Shown: positions 1,801-37,962 of the stretch, piece after piece | How the letters are laid out: the number at the start of each line of letters is the position of its first letter | Numbering within the stretch: position 1 is the first letter of the stretch | Assembly: GCA_030445265.1 (NCBI GenBank) | Contig: JAUCSC010000001.1 | Coordinates: 62,001-126,000, forward strand | DNA length: 64,000 nucleotides | DNA from: Candidatus Saccharimonadota bacterium | GTDB lineage: Bacteria > Patescibacteriota > Saccharimonadia > Saccharimonadales > Saccharimonadaceae | Reading direction: 5' to 3' | Position numbers and translations under genes: made by a program | The notes under the pieces: generated by a model | The model's input: only the letters and a program-made list of their open reading frames with translations | What the model was told of the DNA's origin: nothing | The model's database searches: none

Positions 1801-4461
1801 ATGGTAAAATTTACGGGAGGCCAATCGGTGCCCTATAATAAGCAAGCAGTAACGAGGAGAGCTAGCGTGGCCGATACGAGAGACTTGGATTATGAGCGCC
1901 TATTCATGGCAACGCCGGGCAACTACGTCATTATCGGTGCCGATGTGCCGACATTTACTATTCTAGCCGCAAGCGACGGTTACTTGAAGGTAACGGGTAA
2001 AGAACGGGCGGAGATTATCGGAAAGCCAATGTTTGAAGTCTTCCCCGACACGTCACCACGTGCCCAGAAGACGGGCAAGGGCGAAGTTCAGCTTTCATTT
2101 GAGCGGTGTATTGAATCAAAGCAGTTAGAGCACACCGGCGTCATCCGCTATGATATCCTTTCGCCTGGTGGCAAACTGTCCGTGCGCTACTGGCAAGCCA
2201 CCCATTATCCGATTATCAATGACGGCACCGTGACAGCGATCATGCAGTCGACTGATGATATTACAGAAGATATCTTTGCTCAAGACCGCTTGCAACTGGC
2301 CGAATTGCAACTTGATCAAGTCCTGGCCGATGGTTTAATCGGGTCATATATCTGGGATATCCAGAAAGATGCAGTCGTTGCCGACAAAGGACTGGCATAT
2401 ATGTTCGGGATCGAAGAATCGGTGGCTCGGGAAGGACTGCCGCTTAAAACCTTTACGGATGCTATTTATCATGACGATCGCAAACGCGTCGAGCAATCCA
2501 TCGCCGACAGTATCAAGGGCAATGGCCGTTTTATGCGCGAATACCGTACGACGAACGCCAAAGGCCAAGTCCGTTGGGTGATTGCTCGAGGGCGGGTCGA
2601 TTACGATGCAAACAAACGGCCACTTCGACTAGCCGGCTTACTCATAGATATCACTGAGAGAAAAGAAAGTGAAGCGGCGCTGGTACGCAGCGAGGAGCGG
2701 CTACGCTTTATGGCCGACGCTATGCCGCAGCTCGTCTGGATTGCGCTTGGCGATGGGACGATTGAGTATTACAATCACCGTTGGTTTGAATTTACCGGTG
2801 TTGACATGATGGACCGAGCCGCGACCTCTAAAGCGCAGATAATTCATCCTGATGACCGTCCTGAAGTAGAGCGGAGCTGGAAAAAAGCGCTTAACAGCAG
2901 CGAGCCGTATGAATATGAGTATCGTATCAAAAATCACAAGACCAACTCGTACTATTGGTTCGTCGCCCGCGCCGAACCGTACAAAGATGCGAATGGTAAC
3001 GTCATTCGCTGGTATGGAACCAGTACAAATATCGACGAACAAAAACGAACGACGCAGATCCAAACGTTTCTAGCCAAAGCATCAAAAGAACTTTCGTCCT
3101 CGCTGGAGTATAAAAAAACCGTCGATAGTGTCGGCAAATTGGTGGTGCCGGAACTAGCTGATTGGTATACGCTTAACCTGTACGATGAAGCGAAAGGCTG
3201 GGAAGAAATAAGTGTTGTCCATAAGGATGCGAAAAAACTTTCGTATGCCAAGAAATATCGCTCGCTTAACCCGACACATATCGATGCGCCGACTGGTCTT
3301 GGCAAAGTGGTCCGGACTGGAGAACCGGAGTTTTATCCCCGTATCGACCCCGATGAGTATAAAGGATTAATTTCCGACGATGCCTATCAGCTGCTCAAGA
3401 CGCTCAATATCCGTTCGTTTATCATAGCGCCGATTACGATCGGCAGTAAACCAGTTGGTGGTATCACGTTCGTGTCGTCTGATTCTGGTCGTTACTATAC
3501 CGATAGGGACTTTGAAATGGCTCAAGAGTTAGCTCGGCGCATCTCACTGACAATGACCAATACGACATTATTTGAAGCTTCGCAGGAAGAGGTCAAACAA
3601 CGCCGTCAGCTTGAAAAAGAGCTGCGTAAAGCGACTCGTGAGCTGGAAGCTCGCGTCAAAGAACGCACTAAGCAGTTACAGGAGACGAACCAAGGCCTGT
3701 ACGAGGAAATTGCTCGACGCCAAGAAATTGAAGATGAGCTTCAAACCTATAGCAAGAGCTTACAGCTGAGTAATCAGGAGTTGCAAGACTTTGCCTATGT
3801 TGCGTCACACGATCTTCAGGAGCCACTGCGCAAGATTCAAGCTTTTGGTAACTTGCTTGAGTCAGAGTATGCTCGGGAACTCGGCGACGGTGCCGATTAT
3901 CTCCACCGTATGCATAATGCCGCCTCGCGGATGAGCGTGCTCATCCAGGATCTCCTGGCATTTTCACGCGTGACGACAAAAGCAAAGGATAGCGAATGGG
4001 TCGATATGAACCGTATTGTCAAAGAAGTGCTCGGTGACCTCGAGATGCGAATCGAAGAAACCGATACAAAGGTGACTGTCACTAAGTTGCCGAAACTCTT
4101 ATCTGACCCAACGCATATGCGCCAATTGATGCAGAACCTTATCAGTAATGCGATCAAATTCCGCACGCCCGACCAGGCTCCCGTCATTAAGATATCGGCA
4201 AAACATGACACCCAGGCACATACCTATACGTTCTTTGTGCAGGATAATGGCATCGGCTTCGATATTAAATATCTGGATCGAATCTTCTCCGTCTTTCAGC
4301 GGCTCCACGGTCGAGACGCCTACGAAGGAACTGGTATTGGTCTCGCCGTGTGTCGAAAGATCGTTGAACGGTATGGTGGTACAATAACAGCTGATAGTAA
4401 ACCGGGCCATGGAGCGACCTTCATTGTCACACTACCTGATAATAAGGAGAAAAAAGCATGA
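1801..4461 (+). CDS. multi-PAS/GAF sensor histidine kinase
   Basis: Soluble sensor kinase of 886 residues with no membrane helix. In order: a PAS domain (about 30-150), a second PAS (about 170-290), a third PAS (about 298-415, YWFVARAEPY...IRWYGTSTNI), a GAF domain (about 425-590), a coiled coil (about 595-660), HisKA with the phospho-acceptor His in VASHDLQEPLRKI, and HATPase with N box LMQNLISNAIKF and G boxes DNGIGF and GTGIGLAV. Two starts compete. The ATG at 1801 sits 8 nt after the CATACT -10, which would give a leaderless mRNA. A GTG at 1867 has GAGGAG upstream and a TATAAT at 1834-1839, and would drop 22 non-domain residues. ATGA couples it to the next gene. Confidence 0.93.
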   Translation: MVKFTGGQSVPYNKQAVTRRASVADTRDLDYERLFMATPGNYVIIGADVPTFTILAASDGYLKVTGKERAEIIGKPMFEVFPDTSPRAQKTGKGEVQLSFERCIESKQLEHTGVIRYDILSPGGKLSVRYWQATHYPIINDGTVTAIMQSTDDITEDIFAQDRLQLAELQLDQVLADGLIGSYIWDIQKDAVVADKGLAYMFGIEESVAREGLPLKTFTDAIYHDDRKRVEQSIADSIKGNGRFMREYRTTNAKGQVRWVIARGRVDYDANKRPLRLAGLLIDITERKESEAALVRSEERLRFMADAMPQLVWIALGDGTIEYYNHRWFEFTGVDMMDRAATSKAQIIHPDDRPEVERSWKKALNSSEPYEYEYRIKNHKTNSYYWFVARAEPYKDANGNVIRWYGTSTNIDEQKRTTQIQTFLAKASKELSSSLEYKKTVDSVGKLVVPELADWYTLNLYDEAKGWEEISVVHKDAKKLSYAKKYRSLNPTHIDAPTGLGKVVRTGEPEFYPRIDPDEYKGLISDDAYQLLKTLNIRSFIIAPITIGSKPVGGITFVSSDSGRYYTDRDFEMAQELARRISLTMTNTTLFEASQEEVKQRRQLEKELRKATRELEARVKERTKQLQETNQGLYEEIARRQEIEDELQTYSKSLQLSNQELQDFAYVASHDLQEPLRKIQAFGNLLESEYARELGDGADYLHRMHNAASRMSVLIQDLLAFSRVTTKAKDSEWVDMNRIVKEVLGDLEMRIEETDTKVTVTKLPKLLSDPTHMRQLMQNLISNAIKFRTPDQAPVIKISAKHDTQAHTYTFFVQDNGIGFDIKYLDRIFSVFQRLHGRDAYEGTGIGLAVCRKIVERYGGTITADSKPGHGATFIVTLPDNKEKKA

Positions 4462-4919
4462 GTGAAATCAAAGACCCGATCGTAATATTAATGGCCGATG
4501 ACGATGATGACGATTACGTGCTGACCGAAAAAGCACTCCGTGAGAGCAAGCTACTCAACACACTGATTCGTGTGCAAGACGGCGAAGAGCTGCTTGATTA
4601 TCTAAATGCTGAGGGCAGCTATGCTGGCCAACAGACGCTCCGGCCAGGCGTCATTTTGCTTGACCTCAACATGCCGCGCAAGGATGGCCGAGAAGCCCTC
4701 AAAGATATTAAGTCAAACGAAAATTTACGAGACATTCCGGTAGTGGTATTTACGACCTCGAAAGCCGAAGAGGATATTTACCGCTCTTATAAATTAGGTG
4801 TCAATTCCTTTATTACCAAGCCAGTGACTTTTGACAACTTGATAACCGTCATGCAAGCGCTCGGTAAGTACTGGTTTGAGATTGTTGAACTACCAAAAAA
4901 CCATGATGAAAGCAGCTAG
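4458..4919 (+). CDS. single-domain response regulator (Rcp1-like)
   Basis: A stand-alone receiver of 153 residues that takes phosphate from a histidine kinase, presumably the upstream one, whose stop it overlaps by 4 bp. The acidic pocket is MADDDDDDYV, the phospho-acceptor Asp is in ILLDLNMPRKDG, the conserved Thr is in VVFTTSKAEED and the Lys is in FITKPVTF. The loop of extra acidic residues and the LxxLNMPxxDG pattern are those of receivers paired with phytochrome-like kinases (Rcp1 family). There is no output domain, so it passes the signal on by phosphotransfer or protein contact; the receiver-kinase encoded immediately downstream is the obvious partner. Confidence 0.92.
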   Translation: MSEIKDPIVILMADDDDDDYVLTEKALRESKLLNTLIRVQDGEELLDYLNAEGSYAGQQTLRPGVILLDLNMPRKDGREALKDIKSNENLRDIPVVVFTTSKAEEDIYRSYKLGVNSFITKPVTFDNLITVMQALGKYWFEIVELPKNHDESS

Positions 4920-6018
4920 CAGGAAGATCCGCGTTTTACTCGTCGATGATGACGAAGATGACTACTTGATTATCAGGCAGATTTTTTCCAAGATTCCGGA
5001 GGCTCCCTTTTCACTTGAATGGTCTGATGATTACGATAAAGCTTGGCGCCTTATCGGGCAAAGGAAGCACCACCTGTATTTAATTGATTATCGACTGGGT
5101 GAAAAAAGCGGCATGGATCTCATGCGGGGCATGCTGCCGCAGGCACGACCCGAGCCGTTCATTATTCTGACGGGCGCAGGTGACCGCGATCTTGAACGAC
5201 AGGCCATGCGTGAAGGAGCATCTGATTATCTGGTCAAAGGATCGTTTGGCCCTGAGCTTCTATCGCGAACGCTCCAGTATGCAATCGGTCGTAAAAATGC
5301 CGAACAGCAGCGCGTCCAGTATTTAATCGAATTAAATCGATCAAAGGACGAGTTCATTTCAATTGCCTCCCACCAACTTCGCACACCAGCAACCGGCGTC
5401 AAGCAATATCTCGGCATGGTACTTGAGGGCTTTGTCGGCGAGGTAACTGATCGCCAGCGGGATATTATTCAAAAAGCGTATCAGAGCAACGAACGGCAAC
5501 TTCGCATCGTCGCTGATCTTTTAAAAGTTGCTCAAGTCGACGCGGGTAAAATACGCCTTCATAAACAAAAAGTGAGCGTCGGCGAAATGCTCGGTGATAT
5601 TATTGGCGAACAGGCTGACACGTACCGAATGCGTCAGCAGTCAATTCGCTTTACGTCACCATCGAAAGCTACCACAGCCCATATCGATGTCGATGCCGTC
5701 CGTATGGTGCTCGAGAATATTATCGATAACGCCAGTAAATATTCATCCGAAGGAACCACTGTCAACGTCGCCGTAAAGGAGGATGATCATAGTTTTGAAA
5801 TCACGGTCGCCGATCAAGGTGTCGGTATCGCGGACGACGAACACGCCAAGGTTTTTGAAAAGTTCTCCCGGATTGAAAATCCCCTCTCAACCAAAGTAGG
5901 GGGAACGGGACTTGGGCTGTACTGGGCAAAGAAAATCGTCGATCTGCATGGCGGCAGCGTCCGCTTCACTTCAGAACCGGGCGATGGTACCACGTTCTAT
6001 ATCACGCTGCCAAAATAA
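4903..6018 (+). CDS. receiver-histidine kinase hybrid (REC-HisKA-HATPase)
   Basis: An N-terminal receiver (VLLVDDDEDDY, Asp in LYLIDYRLGEKSG, Lys in SDYLVKGSFG) is followed by HisKA (SIASHQLRTPATGVKQYL, His is the acceptor) and HATPase (VLENIIDNASKYSS, DQGVGI, GGTGLGLYWAKKIV). Input through phosphorylation of the receiver would set the activity of the kinase, making this the second tier of a phosphorelay. It overlaps the preceding receiver gene; the adjacent ATGs at 4903 and 4906 are the likely starts, because the 4876 codon would only add residues that are read from the previous gene's end. No membrane segment is seen. It closes the three-gene operon. Confidence 0.9.
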   Translation: MMKAASRKIRVLLVDDDEDDYLIIRQIFSKIPEAPFSLEWSDDYDKAWRLIGQRKHHLYLIDYRLGEKSGMDLMRGMLPQARPEPFIILTGAGDRDLERQAMREGASDYLVKGSFGPELLSRTLQYAIGRKNAEQQRVQYLIELNRSKDEFISIASHQLRTPATGVKQYLGMVLEGFVGEVTDRQRDIIQKAYQSNERQLRIVADLLKVAQVDAGKIRLHKQKVSVGEMLGDIIGEQADTYRMRQQSIRFTSPSKATTAHIDVDAVRMVLENIIDNASKYSSEGTTVNVAVKEDDHSFEITVADQGVGIADDEHAKVFEKFSRIENPLSTKVGGTGLGLYWAKKIVDLHGGSVRFTSEPGDGTTFYITLPK

Positions 6019-35216: not shown

Positions 35217-35507
35217 TCATCTCCCGGTTTGTTGCTGGAGACGATCGCGTCGCCGTTGCTCCTTCTGGATCTCCTTGTTCAGGAACCAGTAGATGAAGCA
35301 GCCCATGGCAATTGCTGCCCCGAGAAGTGCTCCGATGACTGGGCCACCGAAGAAGCTCCCGATGAGGGCGCCGACTGCTGCACCAGCTCCCATGTAGAAC
35401 ACGGGGATGATGAGAAGCGGCAAGCCGGCAACTGCCGAGGCGAGGACGATGATCAAAAAGATGATCAACACCCCAATCAGGGTTACTTGTAAATCTGTTG
35501 ACATCAT
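35217..35507 (-). CDS. small glycine-rich membrane protein, foreign codon use
   Basis: 96 residues: two or three Gly/Ala-rich membrane helices (about 8-40 and 42-72) and a basic, Gln-rich tail (NKEIQKEQRRRDRLQQQ). Third codon positions are mostly C or G (ATC, CTC, GCC, AAG, GAG), unlike the neighbours. GAAGGG is the SD; the promoter is TTGACA-17-TAAAAT. This design recurs at 56172. Function unknown; likely acquired by transfer. Confidence 0.65.
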   Translation of the reverse strand: MMSTDLQVTLIGVLIIFLIIVLASAVAGLPLLIIPVFYMGAGAAVGALIGSFFGGPVIGALLGAAIAMGCFIYWFLNKEIQKEQRRRDRLQQQTGR

Positions 35508-35577: not shown

Positions 35578-36951
35578 TTAGATGAGGCGGTTGGCAGCGA
35601 CGCGGATAGCTTCGCTCCAGCTCAGAAATGCATGGGGAGTGGCCGCTAGTTGTTCGGCGGTAAGGTTATATTTGACCGCCAGGCCGATCTCGTGGATCAT
35701 CTCACCGGCACTTGGTGCGGCGATCGTACCACCAAGTAGCACGCCCTTTTTATCGGTAATGAGCTTGACGAAGCCGTTACGGAAGTCTGACGTGTTGCTG
35801 CGAGCGATGATGTTAAGCGGCGCGATCGCCTTATTGATGGACAGATCGCGGCGAATGCAGTCGTCTTCACTGAGGCCAACGTGAGCGATCTCCGGTGTGG
35901 TCGAGATGATGCCTGGCATGGCGGTGTAGTCAGGGACGATTTTGCCCCGGTGCAAAATATTGTGAACGGCAACTTGGCTTTCCAGTAAGGCAGAGTGAGT
36001 ATATCGCTGCCGGCCGAGGACGTCACCAGCTGCGTAGATATGTTTGGCAGTGGTTTGCAGGTGATCATTGACGTCAACACCTTTTGGCGTGTATTTCACA
36101 GAGGCATTTTCAAGGCCAAGGTCAAGTTCCGGTTCACGGCCAGCGGCGATTAAGACTTCTTCGACTTTGATACTTTTTTCGACACCGCCGCGGGTGTAAA
36201 GGACGGTCTTGGTGATACCTTCCTTGACGACCGAGAGAACCCGCGAATGGGTGAGTACAGAGACGCCTTTTTGCTCCTCGAGCGTTTTTTCAATCAACTC
36301 CCCTACTTCCTCATCAAGCTTCGGCAGCAGGCGACCGGCTTTTTCAGCGATGTAGACACGAGTACCAAAGGTAGCCATCAGCTGGGCAAACTCAACGCCG
36401 TGACTGCCGCCGCCGATAATAAACAGGCTCTTTGGCGGGCGGATGAGATCAAGCAGCGTGCGGGGAGTCTGAAAACCAGCATCATCCAGGCCCTGGATGT
36501 TCGGCGTAGTCCATGATGAGCCAGTTGCTATCAGGAAGCTCGCCGATGATAGATGGCGACGATTAACCGTAATTTCATTTGGTGAAAGGAAATGCGCACT
36601 GCCATTAAAAGCACTAATGCCGTGGCTTTCATAATAACGGCGGTTGTTGCCAGCACCAGTGCGCTGGACAGCCAAGTTTTTCCAGTTGCGGACAAGGGGA
36701 TAGTTATACCCCATCATTGAACCGCGAAGACCAAACTTCTCTCCATGCTTGGCCTCGTCGTAGAGGCGAGCCGCATGAATCAAGGCTTTTGTCGGTACAT
36801 CGCTCCAGTTTGGTGAGTCGCCACCAAAGGTTTCAGCCTCGACGATAGCGACGCGCTTGCCTTCTCGGGCCGCAATAGTCGCCGCCGCGCTTCCGCCAGC
36901 ACCGCTGCCGATGACGATGAGGTCAAAATCAAAGTTGGATGATTGTGCCAT
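35578..36951 (-). CDS. pyridine nucleotide-disulfide-type flavoprotein without the redox Cys pair
   Basis: 457 residues of the lipoamide dehydrogenase / mercuric reductase family: FAD motif VIGSGAGGSAAATIA (12-26), NAD(P) motif FIIGGGSHGVEFAQLM (about 173-188), second FAD motif IYAAGDV, and the dimerisation domain with the His-Glu pair in TPHAFLSWSEAI. The segment that should read GGTCxNxGCxPTK is GGDSPNWSDVPTK: both catalytic Cys are replaced (Ser46, Asp51). It therefore cannot use the disulfide mechanism; a transhydrogenase- or oxidase-like reaction is possible. Third gene of an operon with an ATP-cone protein and a membrane protein. Confidence 0.88.
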   Translation of the reverse strand: MAQSSNFDFDLIVIGSGAGGSAAATIAAREGKRVAIVEAETFGGDSPNWSDVPTKALIHAARLYDEAKHGEKFGLRGSMMGYNYPLVRNWKNLAVQRTGAGNNRRYYESHGISAFNGSAHFLSPNEITVNRRHLSSASFLIATGSSWTTPNIQGLDDAGFQTPRTLLDLIRPPKSLFIIGGGSHGVEFAQLMATFGTRVYIAEKAGRLLPKLDEEVGELIEKTLEEQKGVSVLTHSRVLSVVKEGITKTVLYTRGGVEKSIKVEEVLIAAGREPELDLGLENASVKYTPKGVDVNDHLQTTAKHIYAAGDVLGRQRYTHSALLESQVAVHNILHRGKIVPDYTAMPGIISTTPEIAHVGLSEDDCIRRDLSINKAIAPLNIIARSNTSDFRNGFVKLITDKKGVLLGGTIAAPSAGEMIHEIGLAVKYNLTAEQLAATPHAFLSWSEAIRVAANRLI

Positions 36952-36959
36952 AAGCCCCC

Positions 36960-37247
36960 TTACAAGGTCACTCGATGTTGTTGATAAAGATAGGCCGCGT
37001 CGGGATGGTGGGCTTCAAGGTGGCGGCCAGCAACGAGGCGCAGGTCACGACTTGTCACTTCCGGTTTGCTCTCGAGCCATTCAATCACCTTTTTGCAAAC
37101 GTTCTTGGCGATTGATTCGGCTTGACCGATCGGGCTACGGACGCTGAGACAGGCAGCGACGAGGCTAGCTTCAAGCTTAGATTGCGAGAAGGACTCTGTT
37201 GGTCGTTGACCTTCACGTTTGATGACATCACTGAGGACACTTGCCAT
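36960..37247 (-). CDS. stand-alone ATP-cone-like protein
   Basis: 95 residues: VIKREGQRPTESFSQSKLEASL, a run of helices (IGQAESIAKNVCKKVIEWLE), then VTSRDLRLVAGRHLEAHHPDAAYLYQQHRV. The order matches the ATP-cone, the nucleotide-binding regulatory module of ribonucleotide reductases and NrdR. Here it stands alone, with no reductase or zinc ribbon attached, between a membrane gene (1 nt away) and the Cys-less flavoprotein (8 nt). It could sense ATP/dATP for that pair. Assignment by pattern. Confidence 0.65.
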   Translation of the reverse strand: MASVLSDVIKREGQRPTESFSQSKLEASLVAACLSVRSPIGQAESIAKNVCKKVIEWLESKPEVTSRDLRLVAGRHLEAHHPDAAYLYQQHRVTL

Positions 37248-37248
37248 C

Positions 37249-37962
37249 CTACATTCCTCCTACGGCGGTTGATAAGACCTTGCTGACGTATACGAAGATG
37301 CCGAGGATCAAGAGGCCACTGCCGGCGGCAAACTGCAGAAAACGTTTGTTCGACTCGCGCCACTTCTGGATGCCGCTTAGGGCATGGCCACTGCCGATGA
37401 GGACCCAGACGATGATGAGGGATAGGCTAGCGATGACCGTATAGACCGCGATGCCGATCAGCTGCCAGAGCGCCGGGAGTTCGACGAGCACCAGGGCACT
37501 GACAAGCAGCGGTGCAATGATAAAGAGCAGTTCCGCGATAACACTCGTTAAGCCCAGGCTGAAAGCTTCGGCGGGATGCGTCGTTGCTTTGGTCCGGTCA
37601 CTAAGGAACCGCGCGGTACCTCTCGGCAGCCAGAGTGATGTCCCCTGCTCTCTTCTGTAGTAAAAAATCCATACGGCAATGCCGACACCTGATAGTAGTC
37701 CGCAGGCCACAGCCCAGACAACCAGCGGTACCTCGGTCTCATAGACTGAAATGACAACGAGAGCGACAAAAGACAATAGCAGCAGTGTCATGACAGCAGC
37801 ACCGATGACGAAGCTGGTAGTGAGACTAAGCAAATTCTTAAGTGGCCGCTTCGACCCGATCGAATGACTCGAAAGAAGCGTCAAGACACTCACGCTCAGT
37901 TGAAAGCTGGCGTGAAGGAGAGCGGCGAAGGCCACGATAGCGAGGGAGGTAGGGATATCCAT
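37249..37962 (-). CDS. six-helix membrane protein (LysE/DsbD-like layout)
   Basis: 237 residues. Helices at about 5-28, 45-72, 75-98, then a basic loop (about 100-130), 135-160, 162-190 and 213-232. The 3 + 3 layout with a Gly/Ser-rich first helix resembles LysE/CcdA-type exporters or electron carriers, but the paired Cys of CcdA/DsbD are missing. It leads the operon with the ATP-cone and flavoprotein genes, which suggests a membrane redox or export role. Confidence 0.6.
   Translation of the reverse strand: MDIPTSLAIVAFAALLHASFQLSVSVLTLLSSHSIGSKRPLKNLLSLTTSFVIGAAVMTLLLLSFVALVVISVYETEVPLVVWAVACGLLSGVGIAVWIFYYRREQGTSLWLPRGTARFLSDRTKATTHPAEAFSLGLTSVIAELLFIIAPLLVSALVLVELPALWQLIGIAVYTVIASLSLIIVWVLIGSGHALSGIQKWRESNKRFLQFAAGSGLLILGIFVYVSKVLSTAVGGM

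Follow-up and report, generated by a model that had tools for sequence, protein, structure and literature searches.

Class-I pyridine nucleotide-disulphide oxidoreductases are recognised by FAD, NAD and dimerisation domains and by a redox-active CxxxxC cysteine pair. Members of the superfamily that are short of this pair are already known (SthA and mycobacterial LpdA), so the absence of the cysteines is not new by itself. ATP-cones are known mainly as parts of nucleotide metabolism and of its control, where they form an allosteric switch of DNA-precursor synthesis. CcdA, the third system relevant here, belongs to the wider LysE-type superfamily. ATP-cones, CcdA and flavoproteins without the Cys pair have each been described before; we know of no ATP-cone or CcdA-type partner of either SthA or LpdA.

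We analyzed a stretch of 64,000 nucleotides (the window) from a Saccharibacteria genome that consists of a single contig of 645,641 bases and is an estimated ~78% complete. Three genes lie on the minus strand of the window in the order MP, AC and FL, encoding a membrane protein, an ATP-cone and a flavoprotein (Table 1). The intergenic gaps, 1 nt between MP and AC and 8 nt between AC and FL, are those given in an earlier note on this DNA, which had staked its proposal in advance on the three-gene order being conserved. This order was indeed kept in 96 of 102 FL loci across Saccharibacteria, with AC and MP upstream of FL on the same strand and AC mostly overlapping FL or at most ~20 nt away; the six exceptions include one locus (L264) that is cut by a contig end. 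Two contigs of Levyibacteriota (L041, L042) have this order too. Of the 151 genomes of the window's family, 128 gave a strong FL match (E of 1e-70 or lower). Since the module is near-universal in an ultrasmall, gene-poor family, its function is probably central there.

Table 1. Features of the three-gene operon, in positions of the window.
Feature	Position	Strand	Remarks
FL, class-I pyridine-nucleotide-disulphide-oxidoreductase-fold flavoprotein without redox Cys pair, 457 aa	35578..36951	-	
FL residues 43-55, GGDSPNWSDVPTK	36787..36825	-	Ser46 and Asp51 at the CxxxxC cysteine positions; coordinates computed from the ORF
AC, stand-alone ATP-cone, 95 aa	36960..37247	-	K10, E18, K24 and T65 nearly invariant (alignment A3)
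MP, CcdA/DsbD-derived membrane protein, 237 aa	37249..37962	-	both active-site cysteines absent
MP residues 17-27, HASFQLSVSVL	37882..37914	-	aligned with DSINPCAIGVL of intact CcdA-type relatives; Cys22 to Leu
MP residues 144-151, ELLFIIAP	37510..37533	-	aligned with ELPCTGAP of intact relatives; Cys147 to Phe, Glu144 kept

For close relatives with unsaturated dS (NG86 method), dN/dS was 0.01-0.06 for FL, 0.015-0.125 for MP and mostly 0.01-0.17 for AC, with one pair at 0.31. Values well below 1 in all three genes indicate purifying selection and exclude pseudogenes and chance. As to the surroundings of the operon, a survey of flanking genes showed a 147-aa protein in the neighbourhood of tilS and ftsH at 37 of 66 loci; this looks like synteny rather than function. 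Just 3' of FL in the window is the gene for a 96-aa protein (35217-35507, minus strand) that has hydrophobic stretches and a segment resembling a glycine zipper; its Pfam matches were weak and below cut-off. Close downstream of the operon, this very small Saccharibacteria genome encodes a Shedu-type anti-phage protein (33431-34522, minus strand; SduA N and C domains, PADLOC 229 bits).

FL contains the domains Pyr_redox_2 (PF07992, 172 bits) and Pyr_redox_dim (PF02852, 75 bits), and thus has the FAD, NAD and dimerisation domains of the class-I enzymes. The FAD GxGxxG, NAD GxGxxG and GD motifs as well as His440/Glu447 were all found, in agreement with the motifs listed in the note. The CxxxxC pair is replaced by Ser46/Asp51, and C365 is the only Cys of the protein. 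A disulfide pair within the chain is therefore impossible, and the note's reading of a flavoprotein without the redox cysteines holds.

The window AC scored above the cut-off of the Pfam ATP-cone family (PF03477; 27.5 vs 25.8 bits), and the ACs of L041 and L042 reached 50.7 and 39.7 bits. All top PDB matches of an AF2 model of AC (pLDDT 85) were ATP-cones of NrdR or ribonucleotide reductase (RNR), with a Foldseek probability of 1.00 and, for the leading matches, VIA Z scores of ~9-12. Residues K10, E18, K24 and T65 correspond in the alignment to residues conserved in the ATP-cone of NrdR, and we take them to be candidate nucleotide-binding residues. All four are present in the window AC and the full set is kept in 70 of 100 ACs. 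As judged by profile and predicted fold, AC is a true ATP-cone, and the note's assignment of a stand-alone module of 95 residues holds. No RNR (PF02867) was found in the ~78% complete window genome.

The note had left the six-helix protein of the operon unplaced. It is a membrane protein, and homology connects it to CcdA/DsbD. By itself the window MP reached the cut-off of no Pfam family, transporter families included. A homologue occupies the same operon position in L041 and L042 (phmmer 6.6e-11 from the window MP to L041; 1.3e-12 for the reverse search of the window genome) and in two further genomes of the same taxonomic order (L206, L207). The first transmembrane segment of these four MPs contains DSINPCAIGV and the fourth VELPCTGAPY, which is the CcdA/DsbD arrangement. 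The MP of L206 passes the cut-off of Pfam DsbD_TM (PF02683; 33.4 vs 27.1 bits), and those of L207 and L212 pass that of SfLAP (PF11139). Profile-profile comparison (hhalign) of the Cys-less with the intact MP set gave 99.1% at an E value of 1e-18. We further aligned 12 intact and 54 other MPs (A2). Both cysteines and their NP/LP neighbours were 100% conserved in the intact proteins (12 of 12). In the 54 non-intact MPs, Cys22 was replaced by Leu in 94% and Cys147 by Phe in 89%, and Glu144 stayed. The window MP has Leu22 and Phe147 at the positions of the active-site cysteines (TM1 and TM4), with no Cys near either former site. In the AF2 model of MP (pLDDT 95.9) the helices break at residues 19-21 and 144, which are the two former Cys motifs. 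A PDB sequence search with the MP profile found nothing, and comparison of the model with the PDB (Foldseek, VIA) produced scattered transporter-like helical matches, none of them convincing. On sequence grounds, the window MP is derived from a thiol-relay protein of the CcdA/DsbD type that lost its two cysteines, a descent on which the understanding of the module turns.

How the cysteines were lost can be followed among the relatives. The intact outgroups (L206 and L207, of the same taxonomic order, and L041 and L042) have all four cysteines, two in the NPC/LPC motifs of CcdA and two in the CxxxxC of FL. Comparison with them shows that the operon stems from a CcdA/DsbD-type transmembrane thiol relay with a CxxxxC flavoprotein, a two-cysteine MP and a stand-alone AC. 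The MP pair was absent from every examined member of the window's family. An FL tree, built with the motif columns masked and with weak SH-aLRT support for some backbone branches, had CxxxxC in the outgroups and all early branches and one main loss leading to the rest of the family; a separate loss occurred in L215, and the placement of the long-branched L169 is uncertain. Five early branches (L124, L125, L130, L134 and L136) keep CxxxxC in FL and have no CcdA pair in MP, suggesting by parsimony that MP lost its pair first. After the loss in FL, S, A, V, W, N, F, Q, Y or T stands at the outer position (C1), while C2, which we take to lie beside the flavin, is almost always Asp, apart from Asn in one clade, Glu in L132 and Thr in L215. 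This difference between the two positions suggests that an acid beside the flavin has a selected role. Thus, of the Ser/Asp replacement pointed out in the note, the Asp is conserved but the Ser drifts, and CxxxxC still stands in five members. Thioredoxin_4 (DsbA-like) proteins were present in 20 of 21 genomes, both with and without an intact relay, and therefore do not explain the Cys loss. Classical thioredoxin (PF00085) was not found in the window genome at its ~78% completeness.

In all eight intact CcdA-AC loci, which include loci with and without FL, the CcdA gene is adjoined by the gene of a membrane-anchored protein that carries HWHAD/HEH motifs and four cysteines that hardly vary. The gene of this extracytoplasmic protein lies upstream in the outgroup loci. 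The protein occurred in no Cys-less locus and was undetected in the 151 genomes of the window's family, a set without a positive control. We infer that it was the former extracytoplasmic electron acceptor. Reading by eye, we also noted that the intact CcdA-ATP-cone cluster of L041, L042 and L206-L211 adjoins a gene for a P-type cation ATPase, and we saw a P-type-like N-terminal ORF in L215 and a pterin-4a-carbinolamine dehydratase-like gene after the CcdA-ATP-cone pair in the FL-less L208-L211.

The note had proposed that the ATP-cone controls the flavoprotein. However, L208-L211, four genomes from a different family of the phylum, encode CcdA and AC but no FL, and L218 encodes DsbD_TM and a C-terminal ATP-cone in one polypeptide (3920-5092, plus strand; both over the Pfam cut-offs). 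Since the ATP-cone goes with CcdA where FL is absent and is fused to it in L218, its partner is probably the membrane protein rather than FL, and any control of the flavoprotein is probably indirect. Among the matches listed for 380 genomes of the phylum, no further CcdA-ATP-cone fusion was found. Other ATP-cone arrangements were seen by eye. In L259 (2973-4246, plus strand) a stand-alone ATP-cone lies directly 3' of a VIT1/CCC1-type-transporter-like gene, which may be another case in the phylum of a membrane protein paired with an ATP-cone. In L260 (3986-4825, plus strand) an ATP-cone-like N-terminus is fused to a restriction-endonuclease-like domain.

We then compared the module with the distribution of a terminal oxidase. 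Cytochrome oxidase subunit I (COX1) was over cut-off in 58 of the 151 genomes of the window's family, and a terminal oxidase is therefore not obligatory for FL. Most family genomes, the incomplete window genome included, had no COX1 match and keep the module. In genomes with COX1, the GD and His-Glu motifs of FL were intact in 37 of 37 and the candidate binding residues of AC likewise in 37 of 37. The corresponding counts in COX1-negative genomes of at least 90% completeness were 29/43 for GD, 30/43 for His-Glu and 19/41 for the AC residues (Fisher p ~2e-8 for AC, relatedness ignored). Over nine independent pairs, which are too few for significance, the association was not significant in a sign test; its direction is what a role in aerobic electron flow would lead one to expect. 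An NDH-2-like ORF was read by eye elsewhere in the window genome (L003), and a Saccharibacteria genome with an Ndh-cytochrome bo3 chain has been described, its quinone thought to be scavenged (PMC6031116).

The direction of the oxidase association, the NDH-2-like ORF and the published chain lead us to favour an electron path, in which the Cys-free flavoprotein, on a platform derived from CcdA and under ATP-cone control, would pass electrons from NADH to quinone or another membrane acceptor. We propose this tentatively and give it not quite an even chance. For the ancestor, we infer from the parts a path from NAD(P)H to FAD, to CxxxxC, to CcdA and on to the extracytoplasmic 4-Cys protein. In the window's family the MP cysteines would have been lost first, with the 4-Cys partner gone, and then the FL pair, Asp replacing the flavin-proximal Cys. 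At present, FL would oxidise NADH on its FAD, and the flavin would deliver the electrons directly to an acceptor that is small or lies in the membrane, most likely a quinone, with FL docked on the re-purposed MP during transfer. AC would bind ATP or dATP on the MP/FL complex, so that the path could be turned up or down with the nucleotide pool. Against this electron path, about one third of lineages show erosion of FL at the NAD site, GD or His-Glu, which an obligatory dehydrogenase should not tolerate. Furthermore, the module is kept without COX1, and the NDH-2-like ORF looks separate from it in the window genome. A broader version, possible but doubtful as a whole, is that the ATP-cone gates a CcdA/DsbD-type conduit, which in most Saccharibacteria would have been rebuilt free of cysteines, with Asp by the flavin and direct flavin transfer, coupling cell-surface or respiratory redox reactions to the ATP/dATP pool.

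The same erosion feeds the main rival to the electron path, namely that the proteins form a regulator built on a pseudo-enzyme, with FL as a nucleotide- and flavin-binding scaffold or redox sensor, MP as its anchor and AC as the ATP/dATP sensor. Many lineages have lost the NAD GxGxxG, GD and/or His-Glu motifs from ORFs that are still full-length, and every Cys pair is gone. A new set of residues, unrelated to thiol chemistry, is conserved in the 54 non-intact MPs (H17, Q21, R103, W111, R114, E132, R202 and K206). However, the window FL and most of its close relatives have all motifs intact except for the Cys pair, all 92 members that could be scored for the FAD GxGxxG retain it, and the dN/dS of FL is the lowest or near-lowest of the three genes in most pairs. 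We consider such a regulator unlikely.

The reading of the note itself, a soluble NAD(P)H oxidase or SthA-like transhydrogenase with the ATP-cone as its direct allosteric partner, appears improbable. Class-I flavoproteins short of the Cys pair do exist, and the FL gene lies beside AC in nearly all relatives. Yet FL fell short of the curated cut-off of every NCBIfam model listed, by a wide span in the case of the SthA equivalog NF003585 (221 vs 465 bits) and of the LpdA-type NAD(P)H-quinone dehydrogenase NF005883 (206 vs 479 bits), and the FL-less genomes together with the fusion in L218 make MP the likelier partner of AC. That MP is a small-molecule transporter to which FL and AC report redox and energy state is decidedly improbable: the match of intact relatives to SfLAP, a family named for a lipid-addressing role, and the newly conserved polar and charged MP residues would fit, but the window MP matched no transporter family at cut-off and the flanking genes of the operon loci contained no conserved substrate-related neighbour. 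Persistence of thiol chemistry through other cysteines is highly improbable: the early-branching L124, L130 and L134 have a lone MP Cys near TM1, three residues before the lost Cys22 site, and C365, a Cys in 68 of 93 Cys-less FL members, might act with an external thiol, but the window MP has no Cys near either site and FL no second Cys, no MP pair is conserved, and several members are without any MP Cys.

If the electron path with nucleotide gating is true, the ATP-cone, the switch of DNA-precursor synthesis, would have been placed in membrane redox control. The family also offers living intermediates of a thiol-disulfide relay that sheds its redox cysteine pairs stepwise while strict selection persists. 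The strict retention of a set stripped of these pairs, together with an ATP-sensing protein, points to a possible new means by which electrons are carried or sensed. Cultures and genetic tools now exist for some Saccharibacteria (PMC10633639). In the literature searched, we found no paper on an ATP-cone together with CcdA, Saccharibacteria or Patescibacteria, and neither the fixed combination of ATP-cone, CcdA and flavoprotein nor a stepwise stripping of cysteines under selection.

Compared with known systems, FL shares with dihydrolipoyl dehydrogenase, mercuric reductase and glutathione reductase the fold family, the FAD and NAD motifs, the dimerisation domain and the His-Glu dyad; unlike these enzymes, it has Ser/Asp in place of CxxxxC, and its gene lies with those of a membrane protein and an ATP-cone. 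SthA and mycobacterial LpdA/NAD(P)H-quinone dehydrogenase belong to the same superfamily and likewise do without the full Cys pair, direct flavin-to-acceptor chemistry being the probable parallel, but FL scores less than half of the cut-off of either model. AC resembles the ATP-cones of ribonucleotide reductases and NrdR in profile score, predicted fold and aligned conserved residues, but it is a stand-alone protein whose gene accompanies a CcdA-type protein rather than RNR. Finally, MP is homologous to the transmembrane domain of CcdA/DsbD (PF02683; related SfLAP, PF11139), with helix breaks at the former Cys sites, and differs from it in the Leu and Phe that stand for the cysteines, in its linkage to an ATP-cone and a flavoprotein, and in its newly conserved residues.
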